Origin: Flammula alnicola
Taxonomy: Eukaryota; Basidiomycota; Agaricomycetes; Agaricales; Strophariaceae
Direction: 5' to 3'
Length of the DNA: 64,000 nucleotides
Assembly: GCA_015499995.1 (NCBI GenBank)
Contig: JADNRV010000143.1
Coordinates: forward strand, 62,001-126,000
Of this stretch, positions 51,162 to 64,000 are shown one piece after another. Below the pieces are notes generated by a model. That model was not told the DNA's origin. It searched no databases and was given only the letters and a program-made list of their open reading frames with translations. Numbering within the stretch: the stretch's first letter is position 1; each line of letters opens with the position of its first letter. The translations under genes were made by a program, and so were the position numbers.

Positions 51162-52146
51162 CAAGCTCAGCCAAGCCACGTGATCGTGTTGCTTTGAAGT
51201 TCAAATATTAATGTTAACGTTCAACGTTCGACCAAACAATCTGCATCTCTTCCTTCCCAACCATCACGTATGTACCCCATCCATATCGTCATCCCCCATC
51301 CATCTGCAACCTCGACCATGGCTAACGACCACCACCAACGATGTCTGCAGCATAGTGCTGCCTCTCCGTTGACCCCCCGCCCAGTGCTCTCCTCGTCGCC
51401 GACGCGCTAAACAGTCCCAAATCTCAGTGGTGCCGCATTGGAAGGGTCCAAAAGGAGTTGAGAATGAGCAGGTAAAGTGGCATTTCACCTCCATTCGACA
51501 TAATTAACCCATCCCCAGTTATTATAGACTTCGACGGCAGGGCTCAACCAGTGCCATGTCATCACAGGTGATGCGACCTTCTACAATGATGATAAACCAT
51601 CACATAGTACGTGGAGGCCAACTTTTACAGCTAACTTCATATAGGGTATTCGGCCACCGTGCATTAGCTGTTCGACTTCAAATGGACATGCAACACCTGA
51701 TAGCGACAAGACCGCCAGCAGACACGCAACAAAGAAAAGGTAAGCCGCGCCTGCCGATCCTCTGCCTCCCATTCGCTGACCATGATGACAGCGAGCGATA
51801 ATGGCTGGCCTGCGAATATGTTACCATTATTCGTGTATCACTAGCGCTGTGATGTAAATCTGAACCTCTAATGGACATGCGGGATAGTGTAGGAACAGAA
51901 CGGTAAGCTGCCGCTGTCAGTGTGAAAAGATGTTCACTTGGGTTTCGCCGGAATGTACTTTATTCGGGCTATTCCAATTTATTCTAGAAATTAGTTCCAA
52001 ATGCAAATATCTCAACTTATGTAGTAAATGAGATAAATTAAATTTGACTTGGAGCTTAAGAGGATAGCCTGGTTGACAGTAAGTTCTTTGTAGTCAAACA
52101 AAGAGTTGTAAGATGAAAGACGTAAGATGTAAGAAGTTAATGAAGG
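51162..52146. other. Gene-poor flank right of the large transposon
   Basis: Only short ORFs; a 30-codon frame at about 51319 (+) ends quickly. Some GC-rich sequence to 51900, AT-rich after. Nothing supported. Confidence 0.4.
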
Positions 52147-52490
52147 AACTTCTTATTAGATAGACAGAGAGACGTAGAGCGTATTAAAGTAAGAAGTAAA
52201 CGATGGAACTTCTTAATAGACAGAGAAATGTAGAGCGTAGATGTAAGAAGTAAGTACAAAGAGACTTCTTAATAGACAGAGAGACGTAGAGCGTAGACTT
52301 AAGAAGTGAATACGAAGGGACTTCTTAATAGATGGACAGTTGTAGAGCGTAAAGACGTAAGAAGTAATACGAAGGGACTTCTTAATAGACGGACAGTTGT
52401 AGAGCGTAAAGACGTAAGAAGTAATATGAAGGAACTTCTTAATAGACGATAAGACGGAAGAAGTAGCGGTATACTTCTTATAAGTGACGT
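52147..52490. repeat. Minisatellite, about 57-bp unit, six copies
   Basis: ACTTCTTAATAGAC recurs at 52208, 52264, 52320, 52377 and 52434, with a diverged copy at 52148. Each unit also carries 'gtagagcgta' and 'gtaagaagt', so every unit pairs AAGAAGT with ACTTCTT of the next and can form a ladder of small hairpins. Confidence 0.85.
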
Positions 52491-52831
52491 TAAGTAATTC
52501 GGAAGATGATAAGACTGAAGAAGTAACGATATACTTCTTTGAATTCAATAGACGATAAGTTCAACTCTCAGTTGAACTTGTATTTACAGATAGACTTAGA
52601 TTCGCGCTAGTCAATTGATAACTTTAAGTGGTAATTGGTATGATGATATTTCAAGGGGAAACGGTCAGTTATTTATACTAATTCTATCTAGTGGCTGTGC
52701 TAGGACTTTAATGTGCTTTGAATAAGCGCCGAGAGTGTTATTGGTAAGATTATTACTCATCTGCACAGTTATGATTATCAAGCGCGCAGCTTTGCACAGT
52801 CAAGCTTACCAAGCCCTCAGTTATGCTTATT

Positions 52832-52936
52832 GAGCGCTTATCAAGCACATGGTTATGATTACTGAGCGCTTATCAAGCACATGGGTATGATTACTGAGCG
52901 CTTATCAAGCACATGGGTATGATTACTGAGCGCTTA
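52832..52936. repeat. 32-bp tandem repeat, GAGCGCTTA type
   Basis: GAGCGCTTA starts at 52832, 52864, 52896 and 52928, a perfect 32-bp period, with 'tcaagcacatgggtatgatta' between. Related but diverged units lie at 52720-52830 and, inverted, at 58510-58690. Confidence 0.85.
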
Positions 52937-53079
52937 CATCAGGAAAATGAAGTTTTTCCTCAGAGAAACTCAGGCTGCTCTAGACATCTCTAAAGACTCT
53001 AAAGACTACAAAGACTCAAAGCTTCTCAGGCATCTTTGAAATCTAAGTGACTTGGTAACTATTTTCTCAAAGACGTCTC

Positions 53080-53310
53080 AAAGCCACTCCACTTGCTTTG
53101 AAAGCAAAACCAAAGACATCTGAAAGCAGAACTAAAGCCATCCCAAAGCAAAACCAAAGCAACCCAAAGCAACCTAAAGCACTCTCAAAGCAGGTCCAAA
53201 GCAATCCAAAGCACTCTCAAAGCAGGTCCAAAGCAACCTAGAGCAGTTGTAGAGCAGTTAAAGAGCAGTCAAAGATCTTTCAATGCTGCCCAAAGTACTG
53301 AGAGGGCTCT
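53080..53310. repeat. Short-period AAAGCA satellite
   Basis: About twenty irregular copies of an 11-12 bp unit of the form CAAAGCAACC, including an exact longer duplication 'actctcaaagcaggtccaaag'. Similar 'agcaacccaaagcagccc' sequence occurs at 58405-58430. Confidence 0.8.
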
Positions 53311-54199
53311 TTAGATGCATGCATTTCTGTCTTACTTTATAAACTTTATAACAAACAACTATATTTGAGTTCCTACTACATAAGTACAACCTAGATAGTA
53401 AAATACCCTAGTCTACATATGATTCTTGTCATTACCGCTCATCAATACTTCCCATGGCACTATTGCCAGCCTTGTTCGTCACCCCATGCCCCAGGTCATA
53501 TTGTTGATGAGGCGGCAGGTGCTTATTCAGGTGCTTGGTGATCAAACAAGGGTGAGGCGGTGGCCTCAAGCCCTGATCTCAAGGAAAAAGCGGGTAGATG
53601 CTTGGTCTTGTTGTCGATGGCGCAGGCAGTGATGGGCAGGCAGTACGAAATCTGCTCGACAAGGAGGGATGTAGCACCACACCCATTCTTGTCAGGCCAG
53701 GTGCCATAGAACACTTCAACGAGGACAGCTTGAGAGGTCTGGATGAGGGGTTAGAAAGGGAGAATGGACGGGGGATACGACGCACTTTTCTCAGATCCCA
53801 GCTCCTCATTTCTGGATGCATACTGGTCCTTCAGAGTACTGATGAACCAGTGCAGGACAGCCAGTGCATGGTCATGGCCGGGCTTGGCATCTGCGATGGC
53901 CACGAAATAGTCAGGCTGCTCGCACCAGTATGCTGCAAAACATCAGGATGAACACGATATGGATGGATGAATGCACGTACCAGGGAACTCGGTGAGAGAT
54001 GTAGGTGAGAGGATAAAGGGAGGTGCAGTGAGTGAGGAGAAATCATCAGAAAAGGAGGCAATGGATTTGAGGAACGAGGTCCAGCTGCCTCGCTGAGAGG
54101 CAGGAACGGCCTGGACAGAGAGTTAGCATGCATGAGATAGGAGAAGAGATGGCAACTTCTCCTGCAGCGGAACCGGCATATGAAATGATGGTGGCAGTG

Positions 54200-54740
54200 G
54201 CGGCAGTTGCTGCTGCTGTTGGCCCTCATCGTATCAAAATGGACAATGACCCTCCTCGCATCAAAACGGTGGTGGTGGTGGCAGCAGTTGTTGCTGTCCC
54301 TCCTAGTCATATCAAAATGGCAGCGGCGGCAGCGGTCCTCGTTGTCGTATCAAAACAGCAGGCTGCTGTCCCTCCTTGTCATATTGAAATGACGGTGGCA
54401 GTGGCAGCGACGGTTGCGATGATGGTGGCCCTCGTCGTCATGTTAAAATGGCGGTGGCAGCAGTGGCGGTTGCTGCTGCTGTCCCTGCTCGTTGTATCGA
54501 CGCCTGCCCGCCTTGGCGGCATGGTCATTGTGCTTGCACCTGTGCCAGCATTGTGCTGCGGTGCCATGGTTGCGGCTGCGCTGGTCTTGGGTGCTTCAGC
54601 TGTGGTGGTGCCGCTGCTGCTGGCAGAGGTTGGGATGAGGGACGAGGGTTCTGCGATGACATCCTTCTTATCGTATCGAAACGGCGGTGGTGGCGGTGGC
54701 GGCCCTCATTGTCATATTGAAACGGCGGTGGGTTCCTCTC
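54200..54740. repeat. GC-rich minisatellite, about 57-60 bp unit
   Basis: Repeated units read roughly CCTCGTCGTATCAAAATGGCGGTGGCAGCAG. Clear starts lie near 54226, 54298, 54336, 54387 and 54437, with diverged units at 54675 and 54706. Related single units occur inverted at 57358-57400 and at 60330-60405. The long open frames across it encode only Val/Ala/Met-rich repeats and are treated as non-coding. Confidence 0.75.
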
Positions 54741-55214
54741 CAGCTCGCCTTCATCATATCCACGCAGCAGCGGCTGGTTGGGGAGCGGGGTGCCACGTCG
54801 AAAAAGAAGGTAGTATGGGGTGGTGGTGAGCCTGGAGGAAGAGTAGTGGGTGGCAGATGTTGGGACGAGGCGGTCATCGCAGCATCGTCGTTGCAGCAGC
54901 AGTGGAGTCATCCGGCTGTCGCCTCATCGTCACCGCGTCTGCCCGCCCCTTTACCGTCACTTGCCTTGCTGCGCCCACCTCACATCGCTGCACCTGGTGT
55001 CATGAAGGGGGGTGGATATGTGGCAGCCGTTGTACGATATGCCCAAGGTAGCTGTGGTAGCTGGGGTTGTCAGACTGGAGGCAATCATAATGGGTGTGGG
55101 CATGTGGGCGTTGCAGCTGCCAAGAGGCAGGCTGCGGGTCATCTTGCTGAGCTGTGTCGAATGGGGCAGGCGAGGCTGGTGGTGGCAAGTTGACAGTGGT
55201 GGGCCGCTGCAGGT

Positions 55215-55490
55215 GTTCGAACAAACTTGAACATGGTCTGGTAAACCAGAGACAGACGTTCGAGAAGGAGACAATGACATGGTAAACGTCGTCGTCTCCT
55301 AGTACAGCCTATGGGTTGGATGGTAAGTAGCAAGTTACAGATGAATAACGGAATGAGTCGTAAGACCTGTTCCATGATGCACCTTGCAGATCTCCCTCTT
55401 CAAGGGTCTCCCCTTGTTCTCTCGCCACCCTCTCCACCCATTCTAAGTCTTCTAAATGACCCACATTGAGAGGAGGGGCAGGCGACCAGT
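55215..55490 (+). repeat. Stem-loop module, copy M1
   Basis: In order: stem A (TCTGG TAAA CCAGA, 55237-55250, inside GAAC...GTTC), stem B (GGAGAC...GTCTCC, 55267-55299), linker 'agcctatgggttgg', stem C (GGAATGAGTC...GACCTGTTCC, 55350-55373, imperfect), then 'cagatctccctcttcaaggg' and a 3' border 'gaggaggggca'. Same order as M3 and M5. Confidence 0.7.
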
Positions 55491-56059
55491 CAGCCTTGTC
55501 CATTTACGTGGGTGTTGTGCAGTTGTCGTTGATGCCCCCGCGGTGTCGTGGGGTCGTCGATGCAACAGCGGCATCATGCGGTGGCCATCAATGCACCTGG
55601 GGCATCGTCGATTCATCATCGAGGGGAGTGGGCAGTGGGTGAAGCGATGGGGGCGCCTACGTGGCTTCTTCAGTGGACATTGCAGTAGTAGGTTGTAGTT
55701 CAATATTCAAATGTTCAAGACAAGTTGAAGTTGAAAAGTTCAACATTCACGTGGGTGGTCAGCTGACCGTGGAAAAAGTGGGACATGATGTCTGAAATCT
55801 CTTAAGTCCTACCTGACAGCTTGACGTCAGTGCATATGGTATCCCAAAACACTGCAACACTGACCTGTCCTGCTTCTTTACTCCAGAGCACACACCCCAC
55901 CCACCACTGCCTATCCACACATCCCTGTCTGTCCAAGTCGGGGATGCCTCGACGCTGCTTTGATGCGACCCGATGATGAGCCAATCGCGACCTCGACAGT
56001 GAGCGAGACGATGACTCCACAATGCTGCAATGGCCCGTGCATCAACGACTCCACGACAG

Positions 56060-56290
56060 TGCCTGTCGCTCGTTGAAGGTTGTAGGCTCGCTCTTGAAGG
56101 GTATAGGTGGGCATAGAGGGGACTAAGAAACCGAGGGGAGACCCTGGAAGAGGGAGACCCACGAGGTGAGTAGTGGAACGAGTCGTTTATATGACTCGTT
56201 CCATGGATTTGTTTCTCCACAGCCCACCACTCACCCCTCCACTTACAGGCCATATGACGAGATGAAGAATGTATTCTTCATCTCCTCATA
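56060..56290 (-). repeat. Stem-loop module, copy M2
   Basis: Minus strand: stem B is GAGATGAAGAAT/ATTCTTCATCTC with a 2-nt loop (56259-56284), then a spacer with 'gagtggtgggctgtgg'. Stem C follows (TGGAACGAGTC...GACTCGTTCCA, 56174-56203, perfect 11 bp) and then 'acctcgtgggtctccctctt'. Confidence 0.7.
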
Positions 56291-56394
56291 CAACGTCATC
56301 ATCGCTTGGGTGTGCCAGGCAATGCTCGTGTTCATACTTTCGACTTGCAACCCCACTGGCATCAGCTCGAGCGCCACCGCCTTCTATGCCCAAC

Positions 56395-56635
56395 AGTTCA
56401 CGCAGGCGATGACGCCACGATGCCGCGGGTGCAACGACAACGGTGCCACAATGGCGGGTGCACCGACAATAATGCTGCAACATCGGGTGCATCGACGATG
56501 ACACGACGATGCCGCGGGTGCGACAACAACAATGCCACGACGCTGCAACGGCGGGTGCAACGATGATGATGCAGCAATGGCGGGTGCATCGACGACAACA
56601 CCACGATGCCGCGGGTATAACACTGCTGCCCGTTT
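56395..56635. repeat. Minisatellite, GATGCCGCGGGTGCAACGAC type
   Basis: Units of about 25-35 bp built on GCGGGTGCAACGACAACG and GCGGGTGCATCGACGATG. Related arrays occur at 57680-57840 and, on the opposite strand, at 60165-60300 and 60980-61170. Trinucleotide-like GTC/GAC phasing keeps frames open by chance. Confidence 0.75.
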
Positions 56636-56884
56636 GACCGCTGCGGCTGTGTGAGGAGGGGCGAGGCAGACGGGTTCAGCCCCTCCATGTTCCTGGGTTC
56701 AGATCTAGTGCATGTATGCCATTGTCGTCGTCCTTGACCCCTACATCTGGAGAGGCAAGGAAGCACCCAAGCGATCGTGCAGGCGCTGGGCGACGCGTCC
56801 CATATACCCATTCCAGCATCTGCGTATTTGGCGCCTGCGATTCAACGTGCCGCACATTGGGGGTTACGGGTGCTGGTGGGGCGT

Positions 56885-57095
56885 TGGGATGGTGGGGTGA
56901 TGGGACCCACGAGGTGCGTCACGGAACGAGTCTTATGACTCGTTCCATTATTCATGTCTCCATAACATGCTACTTACCACCCAAGCCACAGGCTATACAA
57001 GGAGACAGCGACGTTAGTCACGTCGTTGTCTCCTCGACTGTTGTCTGGTTTACCGGACCACGTTCGAGTTTGCTCAGACACCTGCGACCACCCAC
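56885..57095 (-). repeat. Stem-loop module, copy M3
   Basis: Minus strand: stem A (GTCCGG..CCAGAC, 57043-57058), stem B (13 bp with one G-T pair, 57001-57033), linker 'agcctgtggcttgggtggta', stem C (GGAACGAGTC TTAT GACTCGTTCC, 56923-56946, perfect), then 'gcacctcgtgggtcccatca'. About 75-80 percent similar to M1 by eye. Confidence 0.7.
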
Positions 57096-58504
57096 CACGG
57101 CCAATGGCCACGACCCTCGCCGCTGCTGCCGTGATAAAACAGTGACAAATTGGTGTCTGCTGCTTTCGCGATACGTGGGTCTGACAGCGATGCGACGCCA
57201 TGACCACCTCACCCCACCTCCACCACAAAACACCCCCACATGTTGATCCGACATCAGGGGGTCTCAAAAGCCAAAACTGAGAGATCTCCAAGCGTCTCAG
57301 GTCGGCTGAGCACGAAGTCCACTGTCGCACCATCAACAAAGCTCTGGTGTTGAAATGCGCTCGCCGCTGCCACCGCCGGTTCGATATGACAATGAGGGGC
57401 CACTGTCCGATGAGGAAGGCAGCAGCAGCAGCGACCTGCTGCTGTTTTGAGGAGGGGCTGTGGGTTGCCGGTGCATCGATGATGACGACACCGCAGTTGC
57501 AGGTGCATCGTCGTCCTTGGCGCCTGCGCTGCCATACTCGAGTGGGCGTGCCTCGGGGGCGTCGATGTTGCCTATGCCAATGAGCATGGTATCGACGACA
57601 CGACGACAATGATGAGAACCCAGGATTTCGGTTGATGCATGGCACAGGCTATGCCCATCCATCCGGAATGACAATGATGCCACAACACTGCAGCTGCGGG
57701 TGCGATAATGATAACACCACGATGCCATGGGGGCAACGACAACGATGCCGCAATGGTATGTGCAACAACGACAATGCCCCGACGCCGCAACAGTGGGTGC
57801 ATTGACAACGACACAATGACACTGCGGGTGTGCACTGTGACCGCCCCCATTACAAGGACGATGACTGGCGAGGATGGCTGCTGATGGACTGTGAACAGAA
57901 CAGCTTGCCATGACCACTGACAGACTGTGACCACAACTGACAGATGGGTGTGGGTGCTGGCAAGCACGATGGATGGACAGTGAGCAAGTGGACTATGAGC
58001 CTCATTAGCACGACTGATGGTGACCGACCAGGTGGCAAGGTGGTGGAATAGGGCAGTACCTGCAATGCAAGGTAGGCGAGTGAGCAGTACATCCAAGCAT
58101 GCGTAGTCAGGAGATGCTGCTGCTAGGCAGTTTTTTATCATAACAGCTTCCTGATTCATAGTGTACATTTTATAATAAATATAAATTCATCAGATGATAG
58201 TAGTATTATATATAACTTCTCAATCTCAGGATGTTACAGCCTTACAGGGCGACTCAGAGCAACCCAAGTTACTCTATGATGGCTTATTGTAGCCTAGGAA
58301 AATTTAACTTACCTAAGTCAACATGGGATCAAAAGCCTGAGGAGATGAAGAGTCCAAGAGTGCTTTGGGGAACTGTAACTATGTCGAAAGACATCCAGAG
58401 ACACCCAGAGCAACCCAAAGCAGCCCAGGCTGCTTTGTATTGCTTTGGAAAAGTTGGAATTACCTAAGTTGATCTGGATCAAAAGTCGTTTTCCTGATGT
58501 AGCA

Positions 58505-58690
58505 ACTGCTCATGGGTTACCGTTTCTTGAGCGCTTAGCAACTGCACGGTTGTGATCATTTGAGCGCTTACCGTTTGTACGGTTACAGTCATCTGAACAC
58601 TGAGCAACTGCCTGGATACGGACATCGGAGCACTGAGCGACTGCATGGTTACGGTCATCTGAGCACTGAGCGATTGCGCAGATGTCTCTA
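58505..58690. repeat. Satellite related to the 32-bp GAGCGCTTA repeat
   Basis: Five to six diverged 32-36 bp units ('tgagcgcttagcaactgcac', 'gagcactgagcgactgcatg') that resemble, inverted, the array at 52832-52936. Confidence 0.7.
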
Positions 58691-59224
58691 TGTACACATA
58701 GTATTGTTTAGGTAAATGTCCTGTCATGTGATTACAATAATATTTATTATTTTTGCTAAGTGAAGGTGAGCGGTTTGATTCAGAGTTTCACTCCAAACAA
58801 AGTCAGCGCCTGCCACCGCCTACACTTCCTTCAATTGTCTGCAACCTGATTCCCCTGCAGCGCCCCTACTTGGAGTGGCGATGGACAGGCAGCAGCACAA
58901 TGGGAACGGTGTAGTGGCACCGCCTCCAGTCCCACTTCACTAACACATACGACATCCAGTTACCATCACCAACAGACCACACTCATCGTCTCCCCCTTTC
59001 CCCGATCTTGCAGATTAAGCTGGTGTAACGACGGGGGTTCCCATCCGTAGACAGCGAGCAATACAACTTAACTTTAGATTTACTTACATCCAGATGTTGT
59101 TGTACTTACATCAGCAAACCGTGATTTGGTTCCCACAGTATGCCCCTACCCGGATATAGTAGGCACTAGCAACCCCTTATGTAGCTGTAGCATGTCATAG
59201 TGTCACAGCACGCCCCAGCACGCC

Positions 59225-59375
59225 CCAGAGCTCCACAGTAAACGCCAGTGAGTCCACACTTCTGCGTAGTATTTGGTGGGTGCTCCATAGTACTGGATAG
59301 TTTGTGGTGGGTACTCCAAAGCACTGGGTAGTATGCAGTGGGTTCTCTAGAGCTTGGCATAGGACGTAGTGAGTA
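59225..59375. repeat. Diverged 45-bp tandem repeat
   Basis: Three to four units of the form 'gtggtgggtactccaaagca' followed by 'ctgggtagtatgcagtgggt'. Confidence 0.6.
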
Positions 59376-59899
59376 CTTCCCAGTGATATACAGCTCTAAG
59401 TCACTATTTTTGCCTATGTATATACGCTCTACACTTGGGTTCTCGACTGCTAGTCTCTTATTACATGCATGCATATTTCTTGAAAGTATAACACCATAAA
59501 TACATAATATAGTGATTGCCATGCTAATAATAATAATATAGTTGTGCTATCTAAGCATACAAAACAGCTCGGCGCAAAAGATAACGAGCAATGGTTGTTG
59601 AATTCATCCACTAGCGCTGACGCTGCAGTCCAAGAGTGGGTTTACGATAAGCGGGCTATGCAGTGCATTGTTGCGGATGCCTCGGATCGTCAGTGTGGCA
59701 TGCGCAGTGCAGGAGACGATGAGGGACTCTGCTACTCACCTGGGATTGGTTGCGGTTGTCGTCGAGAGAAGAGAGAGGGCCAGGCACCAGCAGCCTCATT
59801 CTATGGGGGAAGGAAGCAGGGTGTGGTGAGAGCTTCGCAGCGGCAGTAATTCAGTGTTGTGTCGGGGTTTGTGTGTTTGTGGGGGCACAGGGGTTGGTA

Positions 59900-60165
59900 T
59901 GCTGTCAAAGTCAAGGATAAGGAGGGCGTCAGCTATGTCTCGTGAGTGAAAAAAGGGGGCAGAGGTGCGTACCAGCCGTGGCGGCCCTCATTTGTGGTCG
60001 AGAGTTTGTTCGTGGGTTCTTTTGCGCTGTTGTTCATCGTGCTGGGTGTTGGTTGTGGTTCTGGTGCGTTTGCAGGGGCTGTGACGTATCCTGTGAAAGA
60101 TAAGGGTAGGGGGTCAGCGATGTCTCATGGGTGAAAAGAAGAGGGTGGAGTTGTTTACCGGCAGC
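59900..60165. repeat. Tandem duplication, 186-bp offset
   Basis: 'atgtctcgtgagtgaaaaaa' at 59935 and 'atgtctcatgggtgaaaaga' at 60121 sit in matching contexts ('aaggataaggagggcgtcag' versus 'aaagataagggtagggggtc'), giving two copies of a unit of about 186 bp. Confidence 0.65.
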
Positions 60166-61249
60166 GTCGTGTCGTCATCGATGGACGGCCCATCGTCGCG
60201 TCGTCATCGGTCGTCGTCGAGGCACCGGTGGCAACATGGTGTCGTCGTCGTTGCACCCACCATCGTGGTGTCGTCGTCGCTGGCTCGTTGTCGGGCACTA
60301 TCAGAGCGGCGTCGATGGGGGTTGCAATGGCGGCGGCTGGCCCTCCTCGTGCTAGCAACACAGCGACGGCAGTCGCTGGTGGTGGTGGTGTTTGTCATAT
60401 CGAAATAAGTGGCCGCAGTTGTGGCTATCATCATCGTCGTATTGAGGCAGCAGCAAGCACAGGATCCATCAGCGAAATGAGTCAAATGATGACTCGTTCA
60501 CGACATACCAAGCCGGGCCTCCGCTCATCGTCTGTCACCCTCTAATCTCCATCTGAGGCCTTCAGAAACCAGCTGAGAGGGGAGGGGCATGCGAGGGGGT
60601 CGGGTATGTCCGCCCTAATGCTCCTCACATGCTCCCGCACCGGTGTCGCTGTGTTTTGTGGTCGGCTGCACGATGGTGACGACGAGCCACACTGGCTCGT
60701 CGTCATGCCTTGGCCGGGCTCCTCGTGACATTTGGGGGTGCTTTGTGGCAGGAGGTGGGGCGGGGTGGTCGTTTGCAGGATCAAACAATGGAATCACGGA
60801 AATCGTGGACTTCGCGAGGCCAGGTGGCATATGGTGCGTCGTCCACACAACCTTCTTCCCTGCCTTTGTCATTGCTAATGATGGTCGCGTCTATCTAGAT
60901 AACGCGCAGCACGAGTGCTATGCGGAGAGAAGGTAAGTACGCGCGTCGAACTGATGAAATGAACGGAATACTTACAGTGACTGCAGCATCGTGGCGTCAT
61001 CGTCGATGCACCCGCAGCTCCGTTGTCATCGTCGTTGCACTCGACGTTGCAGCGTCAGCGTGTCGTCATTGTACCTGCAGCGGCGGCGTGGTTGTCGTTG
61101 CACCTGCCGCATCGTGGTGTCATCGTTGTTGTACCCTTGGCATCGTGGTGTCGCCGTCGCTCACCGTCGCGGTCACTGGCTCGTCGTCGGGCCCTATCGG
61201 AGCGGCGTCAATGTCGGTGGGGAGGCGCAGGTCGAAGGCCGTCTGGGGA

Positions 61250-61480
61250 TCTTGGGCCATGACGAAGTTGGACGAGGAGACGTTCTGGTCTCCTCGTACA
61301 GCCTGTGGGTGCAAGGGTGAGTGGTGGGCATGAACAGAAAGAGTTGACTTGCTTCGGGGCGCACCTCGTGGGTTTCCCTCTTCCAGGGTCTCCCCTCGGT
61401 CTCTCAGTCCCCTCTACGCCCACCTATATCCTTCGAGAGCGATCCTCCAACCTTCATTGAGGGACAGCGAGGTGAGGGAA
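61250..61480 (+). repeat. Stem-loop module, copy M4
   Basis: Stem B is ACGAGGAGAC GTTCTG GTCTCCTCGT (61272-61297, perfect 10 bp), then linker 'acagcctgtgggtgcaaggg', a decayed stem C region, and 'gcacctcgtgggtttccctc' followed by 'ttccagggtctcccctcggt' as in M2. An additional lone hairpin (AGATCGACGAC...GTCGTTGATCT) lies at 61505-61532. Confidence 0.65.
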
Positions 61481-61770
61481 GGTGGAGATGGAGGTTGAAG
61501 AAAAAGATCGACGACATTGAACGTCGTTGATCTGTTCTCCGGCAGTTTCCGTGAATGACCCGGTTGGTCATGAATCGCAGAGGGTCAGCCATGTAAGCTA
61601 GAATTATATATGATACCTGGGCTGCCTGCCAATAAGGAGTGTACATCCACAAGGCTAACAACCCCCTTGGGCAGTTGCCCAACACTATGCAACATAATAC
61701 CTACAGGCTGCCGGGGTGCCAGAGACGGCTTTGGTGCTTGTTGTTGGGGCGGATGATGGTAAACAGATGT

Positions 61771-62200
61771 CAATATTGCAGGAAATGATGTCCAGCACTG
61801 TATTTTGGGTGCTGCTCGTCGTCGGGGGCGCTTTTGGGCGCGGAAAAAAATCTAATAGGATCTATTAATATATTTTGACCTGCCCCCACCCTTTGCGCGC
61901 CTCGGGGAGGGCGGGGACAGGTGGATTGACGAGCATGGCTTTGGATGACGTTCCTATTTGGGGCGGGGCTGCTGTCAAACAACTGTCAACAATGTGGGAA
62001 ATGATGCCCGGGGTTGCAGTTGGGCTCTTGCTCATTGTAGGGGGCGGTTTTGGGCATGCAAAAAGCGGGGATGGGTTGCTGTAATTTTTCTCACCCCATA
62101 TTAGGTGCTTGCCCCACTGTCGGGGGGCGGGATGGGATGGATTAAAAAGGATGGCTCCGGATAAACCTGCAATATTTTCGCATTGCCGCTGCACTATTTT
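61771..62200. repeat. Tandem duplication, 216-bp unit
   Basis: 'caatattgcaggaaatgatg' (61771) and 'caacaatgtgggaaatgatg' (61987) start two copies. Both contain a 'ttgggtgctgctcgtcgtcg'-like stretch, 'gggggcg.ttttgggc' and a later 'gcccc.c...cggggaggg' block. Confidence 0.65.
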
Positions 62201-62267
62201 TAGATACATCAAATCAGTGACATCATTGAATCAGTCTCCTTTCCGGGGCGCGGCTTTTATTTCCGGG

Positions 62268-62880
62268 TGCCTGGAAATGGTTACCCCGCCACGGGCGCAC
62301 TAGAGAGATGGTAATTTAAAAATAGATTCACATCCTTTCATGTGCCGCTTGCCCTTCCCATTGGTTATGTATTAAATAAATGACATATCTGTACTCTACA
62401 AGGAATTCTGAATCCAGTTATACTCACTTTATGGTCCGGAAAGGACGGAAAGGATTGCATTGCCTGGAAATGGTTATAAGCGCCTCGGGTGCACTTGACA
62501 GATGATAGTTTAAAAATAGATTCACATTGTTTTGTGTGCCGCTTGCCCTTCCCGTTGGTTATTTATTAATTAACCTACATAGCTGTACTCTACAAGTTAT
62601 TCTCAATCGAATAATACCTATTTAAAGGTCAGAAAAGGACAGGAAAGAGCGGGGCATCTGGTTGTGCGCAACCTCGGGGACTTGGATGAACGCTACAGAG
62701 TAGCATAGGATGAGTGATATAAATAGATTGCCATTGATTCACGACCATTTTTCCGCTGCCGCAACCTCTATTCTGCTGTCCCCCAATTTTTTAATCCATA
62801 GTTGTAATCTACAAGTAAATACAAACCTATTGATACCAATTTTGTCATGAGAGGAGGCCAGGAAGGTATATATGTTAACA
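62268..62880. repeat. Tandem repeat, about 193-bp unit, three copies
   Basis: 'tgcctggaaatggtta' at 62268 and 62461, 'atttaaaaatagattcacat', 'tgtgccgcttgcccttccc' (62341, 62535) and 'ctgtactctacaag' all repeat with a 193-194 bp offset. A third, diverged copy follows with 'atataaatagattgccattg' and 'agttgtaatctacaag'. Confidence 0.8.
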
Positions 62881-63604
62881 CTTATGTTTTACCAGTTTCC
62901 GGTATTGTTGCACTCACACCTGCAGCTGGCTGGATGTAGATAGACATTGGAATTTATATTAAAACTAAGAATATATTATAAACATGGCCCAGAGCGCTAT
63001 CAGCGAGCTCTGGGTATCTATCTACTTGTCAATACCCCCCGGGCGCCCTGCACTACCGTTGCCTCCCACTTTCGTCCAGCTCACCCCTCGTCGACCTGTC
63101 GTAAGTTCGGTGTGATCCCTGGTTGGTCTTCTTCGTCGGCATGCCGTGGTTGTGGCCATTGTTGGTGCTGGTCACCATGCTCGTCGCTTGTTGTTCATCG
63201 TGGTGCCCTTCCATTGCCTCGGCTTCGAACACCGTTCTTTGACCAGTTGGTCAAGAAAGCGGCGGGTAGCGGAGGGTGATGACTCAGTGGTGAGGGCGGT
63301 GCTGATCTCGTGCGCCAGTGGATAGTTAATGAGGTAGGCGGGTGGCGTCGACCGCGCACAAGCCAGGATGCACGGTGGCAGCCTACATCCGTGAGGGGTG
63401 GCATTGCGAGAAGAGGCGGCGGTAAGGTTACGAGCAGAGGTGGCGGTGGTGGTGGTGTTGCGAGTGGAGGCGGCAGTGGTAGTTTTGGAAGCGGAGGCGG
63501 TGGCGGCGTCGTCGCGAGCAGATGCAGTGTTGGTGGTGTCACGAGCGGAGGCGGCAATGGGGTGTTGCGATCGGAGGTGGTCGTGGTGGTGAGGCCCTAA
63601 AGCA

Positions 63605-63985
63605 CGGACTCGAACATCGTCTGCACGAGACGATGTTCGAATCCAAGGAGACGACGAAAGTTTTTTCGTCGTCTCCTCGCATAGCCTCGCATTTGGCATC
63701 TCCATGCTGGAAAGCGGCAGCGGCAGCGGATGCACCTAGCATGACAGGGACGACGATTGTCGTCCCCTCGTCTGACCTATGGGCTGGGCATGTGGGTAGG
63801 GTGAACGAGGGATGTAGAATGGAACGAATCGAGTCTTATGACTCGATTCGTTGCGTACCGGGCAGGGTCACCCTCTACTAGGGTCTCTCCTCGTATTCCC
63901 TGATGCTCCAGCTCCCACCTGCATCCTTCCCGAGTCGGCCCACGTCCCTAGAGGAGAGGAGGGGCACGCGACGCGGGTTTAGTGT
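63605..63985 (+). repeat. Stem-loop module, copy M5 (three perfect 13-bp stems)
   Basis: Stem A TCGAACATCGTCT/AGACGATGTTCGA (63610-63640), stem B GGAGACGACGAAA/TTTCGTCGTCTCC (63647-63676) and stem C AACGAATCGAGTC/GACTCGATTCGTT (63823-63852) are each perfect over 13 bp. The 'gacctatgggctgggcatgt' linker precedes stem C, and the copy ends 'gagaggaggggcacgcgac' like M1. Confidence 0.75.
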
Positions 63986-64000
63986 GTTGGTTCATGCGGT

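Follow-up and report, generated by a model that had tools for sequence, protein, structure and literature searches.

The window analysed here comprises 64,000 nucleotides of the agaric Flammula alnicola (contig JADNRV010000143.1, referred to as C50, positions 62001-126000; genome ~74.4 Mb) and carries, towards its right-hand end, five stem-loop modules (M1-M5) that lie inside DNA transposons. The hairpins of these modules are paired in most copies, differ in sequence among them, and stand at near-constant distances from letters typical of splice sites. Judged from the sequence, the modules are probably the 5' leaders of spliced, apparently non-coding transcripts within non-autonomous elements.

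Stem-loop modules and their host transposons

The five modules, which an earlier note had singled out by inspection of the letters, are all present where it had seen them. A covariance model derived from 27 copies (including M1-M3 and excluding M4 and M5) recovers M1-M5 with E values from 5e-33 to 2e-14; of its five other matches at E <= 1, four are echoes of these stems on the reverse strand and one has E 0.81. Between 54.6 and 64 kb there are 11 hairpins of at least 9 net pairs, eight of them inside the modules, whereas five Markov-randomised 9.4-kb controls contain 0, 0, 1, 1, and 1. The stem-loops are real and well beyond the chance level. The sense strand is minus for M1, M4, and M5 and plus for M2 and M3 (Table 1), and on this strand the stems follow one another as D-C-B-A. 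The order A-B-C given previously is that of the antisense strand, and the fourth stem (D), which lies sense-upstream of the others, had been overlooked. The three stems ascribed to each copy do exist, but the set is incomplete in several modules: stem C is missing from M4 and stem A from M2, and the stem A of M1 and M3 is broken. The 12 pairs of stem C in M1 include two G-U and two A-C.

Table 1. Positions of host elements, predicted introns, and stem-loops in the window (strand, sense strand of the module)
Feature	Position	Strand	Remarks
Target-site duplication TA, left	52935..52936		GCGCTTA|CATCAGG
DNA transposon with M1, M2, M3; 5,563 bp, no detected transposase	52937..58499		ends CATCAGGAAAATG.. 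/ ..GTTTTCCTGATG
M1 stem-loop B	55266..55300	-	8 nt past 3' splice site
M1 predicted intron, 74 nt, GTGCAT..TAG	55309..55382	-	
M1 stem-loop C	55348..55375	-	8/12 pairs Watson-Crick
M2 predicted intron, 83 nt, GTGAGT..CAG	56166..56248	+	
M2 stem-loop C	56174..56203	+	
M2 stem-loop B	56253..56290	+	
M3 predicted intron, 78 nt, GTGCGT..CAG	56914..56991	+	preceding exon unlike common motif
M3 stem-loop C	56921..56948	+	
M3 stem-loop B	56998..57036	+	decayed stem A behind
Target-site duplication TA, right	58500..58501		CTGATG|TAGCAACTGC; intact unit GCGCTTAGCAACTGC in neighbouring 33-bp repeat
Second element fragment, with M4	59109..61585		left end CATCAGCAAACC after TA; right side cut at ~61585
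M4 stem-loop B	61265..61304	-	core ACGAGGAGAC/GTCTCCTCGT at 61272-61297
M4 predicted intron, 62 nt, hairpin C decayed	61303..61364	-	
M4 stem-loop D	61505..61533	-	
Third element, left part, with M5	61586..64000		61597-62064 returns inverted elsewhere on C50
M5 stem-loop A	63610..63640	-	
M5 stem-loop B	63646..63677	-	
M5 stem-loop GGGACGAC/GTCGTCCC	63747..63766	-	10 nt past 3' splice site
M5 predicted intron, 82 nt, GTACGC..TAG	63777..63858	-	
M5 stem-loop C	63823..63852	-	

The borders of the element with M1, M2, and M3 are defined by uninterrupted target sites, which had been suggested as a means of fixing them. Its flanks (51912-52936 and 58500-58819) adjoin at 15 other places in the genome (C668 twice, C234, C702, C334, C18, C767, C45, C2, C186, C66, C367 twice, C137, and C1). 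The junction at these sites ranges from a 72-bp overlap to a 158-bp gap, a spread that is expected because the 5.6-kb insertion struck a 33-bp tandem repeat that belongs to another dispersed family (window 58527-58691). A second copy with different flanks (C849:6819-12381) matches the element over its full length (100% when rounded; 99.8% identity over the 4,694 bases compared).

Transposons of the PlavakaB type, which are related to CACTA/EnSpm, have CATCA..TGATG termini and create duplications of 2-3 bp, according to the accessible text of PMC12730594. The element in the window shares the 5'-CATCA..TGATG-3' ends, a 2-bp duplication (TA at both ends; one insertion with both flanks read), and an Agaricomycete host, and its genome is rich in Plavaka transposases (148 matches). 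It differs from PlavakaB in that no transposase was found between 52937 and 58499: C50 carries not one of the 148 PF18759 matches (123 of 185 candidates scored), Pfam recognised nothing in 10 frames of the element, and the scanned frames of at least 100 aa yielded no transposase match. The element looks like a non-autonomous member of the Plavaka type, classed by its ends alone.

Ends of the CATCA..TGATG kind (<= 1 mismatch) also flank modules on C557, C347, and C183, and single such ends lie near modules on C434, C145, C140, C330, C790, C203, and C100. On C10, an end of this kind sits within a module intron and marks a nested insertion. The element with M4 starts with TA|CATCA at its left end, and its matches on C10, C26, and C40 begin at window position 59108/59109; it is interrupted by the repeat containing M5, whose matches begin at 61584-61586. 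The inverted recurrence of 61597-62064 (94% identity) lies outside the window, at C50:128915-129382 (66915-67382 on the window scale). Candidates for an autonomous relative are two of the 69 merged Plavaka loci, one on C297 and one on C357, where a pair of modules is located 5.7-5.8 kb upstream of the Plavaka match on the same strand. Thus, the carrier is a mobile, bordered element with copies elsewhere, as had been proposed, but the hairpins are better read as a putative leader inside larger transposons than as a three-hairpin element in its own right.

Other features of module-bearing elements stand apart from this comparison. The CATCA-ended element C557:69265-74717 contains a prenyltransferase-like frame (C557:72564-73311; L069:2188-2934, plus strand; PF00432, E 7.9e-29), possibly a case of gene capture by the transposon. 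On C745, inverted repeats with 99.8% identity and a length of at least 3,131 bp, each of them containing modules, enclose a 26.5-kb stretch (C745:19391-45941). In the window, there is a 168-bp duplication at 62287-62648.

The existence of further copies in the genome, on which the earlier note had made its proposal depend, is evident from the motif of the exon preceding the intron, which occurs (<= 3 mismatches) at 195 places in the 74-Mb genome and at none in a reversed control. Among the 100 of these places that were listed, there are at least 10 divergent pairs 1.1-1.6 kb apart, and a second pattern retrieves more divergent pairs at distances of 0.55-0.73 kb (on C140, C205, C297, C312, C357, and C434). 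Neighbouring modules in 63 module-bearing stretches are divergent in 22 cases (0.78-1.45 kb), tandem in 15, and convergent in none. In the window, M1 (minus) and M2 (plus) are divergent, M2 and M3 are in tandem, and the partner of M5 lies outside, at ~65.2 kb. An interpretation of M1 and M3 as plain foldback inverted repeats has been superseded by these divergent units.

Predicted introns and hairpin positions

Four genome searches yielded 96 loci, which merge into 70 stretches. A profile of the five modules (nhmmer), applied to these stretches and the window piece, produced 162 matches, 100 of which were kept at E <= 1e-8, with the window piece and the C849 copy left out. Removal of duplicates more than 95% alike, of one entry by hand, and of entries without a 3' site found by rule left 55 distinct introns. 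The linkers common to all copies, previously taken for spacers, read on the sense strand as splice junctions, with CCCACGAG|GTGCGT at the predicted 5' splice site and CCCATAG|GCT or CACAG|GCT at the predicted 3' splice site. GT starts 54 of the 55 introns and AG ends 54; because the picking rules sought these letters near the expected place, the weight of the result rests on their sharing the same aligned columns.

Both hairpins are tied to these letters. Stem C lies inside the intron (49-97 nt) and is present in 46 of 55 cases; in 41 of these, it starts at a distance of 6-8 nt from the 5' splice site. Stem B follows the 3' splice site within 30 nt in 49 of 55 (median 8 nt). With the score set at 8 or higher, 41 of the 55 introns have stem C and 43 have stem B no more than 30 nt past the 3' site, whereas shuffled sequence gives 0.3 and 1.1, respectively; at a score of 6, the values for stem B are 49 of 55 vs 9.5. 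Introns with stem C have a median length of 82 nt, which falls to 51.5 nt (42-71) if the hairpin is looped out. The nine introns without a hairpin measure 49, 53, 53, 55, 61, 61, 62, 62, and 79 nt, the last being the one split by the nested insertion. The exon before the intron is conserved along with it in 45 of the 55 copies.

Further upstream, stem D and a second intron-like stretch, which reads GTATGT..CTAAC..TTAG in M5, are visible in copies inspected by eye (and not counted). The promoter-like region of four inspected copies contains GCCAGCCAATC-like letters, which we take to be a CCAAT box, in two copies and a palindrome (TTTGCGACATGCATGTCGCAAA; stem E) in two.

The lengths of insertions and deletions (indels) do not fall in threes. 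In exon 3, those with a remainder of 0, 1, or 2 after division by three number 60, 130, and 62 (60 of 252 in threes), and in exon 2, they number 8, 35, and 5. Since, in addition, no protein relative of the 302-aa frame running through stems C, B, and A was detected among 7,991 scored candidates, the leader looks non-coding. A protein-coding reading was dropped on these grounds and because 10 frames of the element had no Pfam match and four frames gave a single one, which was below threshold.

Associations of the modules with particular genes were considered as well. A role as leader of TET/JBP genes was rejected, as only 3 of 45 Tet_JBP matches have their nearest module upstream on the same strand within 15 kb (C119, 2.1 kb; C849, 3.9 kb; C264, 5.75 kb). 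In the C849 case, the module is part of the inserted copy of the element, whose start lies past the TET match, and most KDZ-TET pairs have no module among those listed. Loci were merged from gene fragments with positions entered by hand (119 KDZ matches to 82 loci, with 37 KDZ loci in the KDZ-TET comparison; 148 Plavaka matches to 69). KDZ loci lie within 15 kb of any of 154 listed modules in 12 of 82 cases, an enrichment given that at most 4% of the genome is that close, and Plavaka loci are near listed modules in 4 of 69 cases. The modules were nevertheless not assigned to the KDZ transposons, because transposons cluster anyway and the spacing is not fixed. Tet_JBP and KDZ matches themselves form convergent pairs at 15 places, with a spacing of 3.3-3.9 kb (e.g., C49:90505-94870, C59, C447, and C548), and this layout is constant in the genome. 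Outside the module region, the window contains a NACHT/nephrocystin-type gene at 34.1-35.4 kb (PF24883, PF05729). Another gene, at 9.7-10.8 kb, has named protein relatives that come mostly from Agaricomycetes (Blastosporella in first place, followed by Mycena, Leucocoprinus, and others), in keeping with a mushroom-forming host.

Evolution of the stems

The claim of the earlier note that the stems differ between copies yet stay paired through compensating changes is borne out for stem C. In an alignment of 27 sequences, 94.1% of 323 cells are paired, compared with 31-42% in slid controls. Two-sided changes affect 8 of 12 pairs, which is equalled by 2 of 500 shuffles, and 35 cells, which is equalled by none of 500. 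Over 46 copies, with registers set partly by hand, the 12 pairs align without gaps and include double transversions such as A-T to T-A. By contrast, the expectation that further copies would stay paired holds only in part, given the nine hairpin-free introns beside the 46 with stem C.

Parsimony on a tree from which the stem was left out (45 copies after one misregistered copy was dropped; ties favouring Watson-Crick ancestors) places 21 two-arm changes on single branches, together with 27 changes to G-U and 13 to A-C; G-U is repaired four times and A-C never. Of the 21 double changes, 18 are of transition types that can be reached via G-U. Among copies that are 97-100% identical, 1,893 pairs of non-CAG stems show 36 one-arm changes and no two-arm change, and 847 pairs of CAG stems show 13 and none. 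Double changes from one Watson-Crick pair to another number 2, 22, and 86 in the 93-97, 85-93, and 70-85% identity classes, and the ratio of per-base change in stems to that in flanks, with the classes in order of increasing age, is ~1.9, 2.0, 1.0, 0.64, and 0.53. Young damage is common and unpaired, whereas old damage is missing or compensated, which points to purifying selection on the pairing of the stems and not to a joint copying of the arms. Of the two mechanisms considered previously, selection is thus favoured, and copying through a hairpin fails for recent copies.

Stem C, read on the sense strand, has a G-U to A-C ratio of 45:18 over 45 distinct stems and of 53:21 (p 0.00026) in a second count over distinct stems; the strand asymmetry of transitions in the flanks is small (0.99-1.38, highest in the youngest class). 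An excess of G-U over A-C indicates that the sense RNA is under selection rather than the DNA; as it is significant in stem C only, the data suggest that selection acts on this stem at the level of RNA.

Some copies show gross changes in their hairpins. In one of two stretches that are 99.4% identical (C734, from 195719, base 1867, vs C188, from 8802, base 1870), stem D is missing exactly (40 bp, with an 8-nt direct repeat at the border). Stem A has grown to about seven tandem palindromic units of ~20 bp (ACATCGTCTGCATGAGACGA..) at C66:58434-58828 (L010). The B-A double hairpin is tandemly repeated within one unit at C32:118.8-119.3 kb (L070) and on C68 (L042), where a second intron-like stretch precedes the repeat.

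Origin and possible function of the modules

In the interpretation favoured here, the units, which often form divergent pairs around a shared promoter-like centre and sometimes stand in tandem, would each be transcribed through stem D, across two introns separated by a short exon, the second of them having stem C just behind its 5' splice site, and on into an exon that opens with stem B and often stem A. Looping-out of stem C would keep the 5' splice site and the branch point ~50 nt apart and allow a compact intron to fit the spliceosome, whereas stems B and A would structure the start of the next exon. Elements with a working leader may go on being copied, so that the pairing is kept while the letters change.

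Several observations weigh against this interpretation or limit the evidence for it. The covariation of stem C is weak in the second subfamily alone (15 overly uniform sequences with two double-change pairs, equalled by 59 of 500 shuffles), and the pairwise counts by identity class, which span all non-CAG hairpins and use hairpins defined on one partner, are not independent of kinship. The excess of G-U is not significant in stems A (12:10), B (33:22), D (10:8), and E (5:4) or in the CAG-array hairpins (17:16), which leaves room for a role of stems A, B, D, and E in DNA. Even for stem C, the parsimony counts alone (27:13) give p ~0.04 with ties settled towards Watson-Crick ancestors, and the youngest changes (97-100% class) are at 14:18. 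Splice-site letters persist in the 9 of 55 distinct introns that have no hairpin, and a loose branch-point motif is present in 53 of 55 introns but also in 35.9 of 55 shuffles. In 50 of 55 cases, folding of the whole intron reaches a lower energy on the antisense strand; it often predicts pairing of the 5' splice site as well, and the two strands of the five modules in the window have similar shuffle z-scores. The exon before the intron is not of the common type in 10 of 55 copies (M3 included), suggesting that exon and intron are reshuffled at times. Moreover, for most of the Plavaka and KDZ loci listed, none of the listed modules is close by.

Among the alternatives, selection at the DNA level would regard the stems as palindromic binding sites of a transposase or transcription factor, or as cruciforms, and their proximity to splice sites as incidental. 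This explanation fits the mispairs of stems A, B, D, and E, which show no significant preference for either strand, as well as the location of the palindrome TTTGCGACATGCATGTCGCAAA and of stem D in the promoter-like region and the near invariance of the outer halves of stems A and B (TCGAA.. and GGAGA..). It is nevertheless unlikely, as it does not account for the excess of G-U in stem C, for the freely varying letters of this stem, which are unlike those of a binding site, or for the fixed distances of C and B from the splice-site letters. Mutation alone could also maintain the stems, because correction of imperfect palindromes by template switching or hairpin copying is a known process that changes both arms jointly without selection. 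The 21 two-arm changes on single branches and the exact loss of stem D between near-identical copies, which implies that the stems take part in slippage, are compatible with such a process. However, the absence of double changes among the youngest copies, the appearance of Watson-Crick double changes only with age, and the 18 of 21 double changes within reach of G-U intermediates render it quite improbable.

A function as precursors of small RNAs, with the stems feeding a silencing pathway, has the lowest probability of all. A weak echo of an Rfam microRNA family in stem A of M5 (sense strand; 26.9 bits at a cut-off of 100, E 0.097) stands against the shortness of the stems (~10-18 pairs) relative to known Dicer substrates and against their divergence between copies, which precludes a shared small RNA. 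Only slightly better are the odds that the modules are proliferating introns, i.e., self-moving hairpin introns akin to introner-like elements or symmetrical stwintrons. Inverted repeats do occur in fungal introner-like elements and in the stwintrons of Hypoxylaceae, according to the accessible text of PMC8469720, and the front exon differs in 10 of 55 copies. However, its conservation in the other 45 indicates a single position that is mostly copied with the transposon, and the complementarity lies in a short hairpin towards the 5' end of the intron and does not involve the intron ends.

The leader interpretation also sets the modules apart from systems already described. Like the modules, the ascomycete stwintrons and introner-like elements are repeated fungal introns with internal complementarity, but those described in PMC8469720 integrate seamlessly into exons at new places, with inverted repeats that extend over the ends of the intron. 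The modules, by contrast, have a short hairpin 6-8 nt into the intron and move mostly with their exons in a DNA transposon. The double-hairpin elements of fungal mitochondria are likewise small hairpins with compensating changes, but they are mitochondrial and free-standing, whereas the modules are nuclear and placed behind splice sites. Between 54.6 and 64 kb, Rfam gave no match above the gathering score; the 26.9-bit echo was the single match. The word "hairpin" is absent from the main text of PMC12730594, and "palindrom" occurs in it once, in a denial concerning the borders of TET genes. In agreement with the earlier note, no fungal element with this layout was found in the literature searched, which covered few subscription journals. 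As far as the searches go, the transposon type is known and the hairpin-bearing spliced leader within it is undescribed.

A more far-reaching version of the leader interpretation is tentative. The modules might constitute a transferable regulatory cassette, composed of a divergent promoter and a structured, spliced, non-coding leader, which at least two kinds of transposons would have taken up and in which selection would act on the pairing of the RNA and not on its letters. Just as tentatively, the cassette would place a short hairpin at a near-fixed distance behind the start region and behind each of the two splice sites. The two kinds of transposons would, with the same reserve, be the CATCA..TGATG elements and the elements with inverted end repeats of ~470 bp.

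For a non-autonomous family of the Plavaka type, the analysis supplies concrete borders together with target sites that are uninterrupted. With about two hundred copies and covarying stems pinned to splice-site letters, the modules represent a natural mutagenesis set for hairpins beside the junctions of compact fungal introns, and they suggest that selection may act on RNA structure in DNA transposons that seemingly encode nothing at that place.

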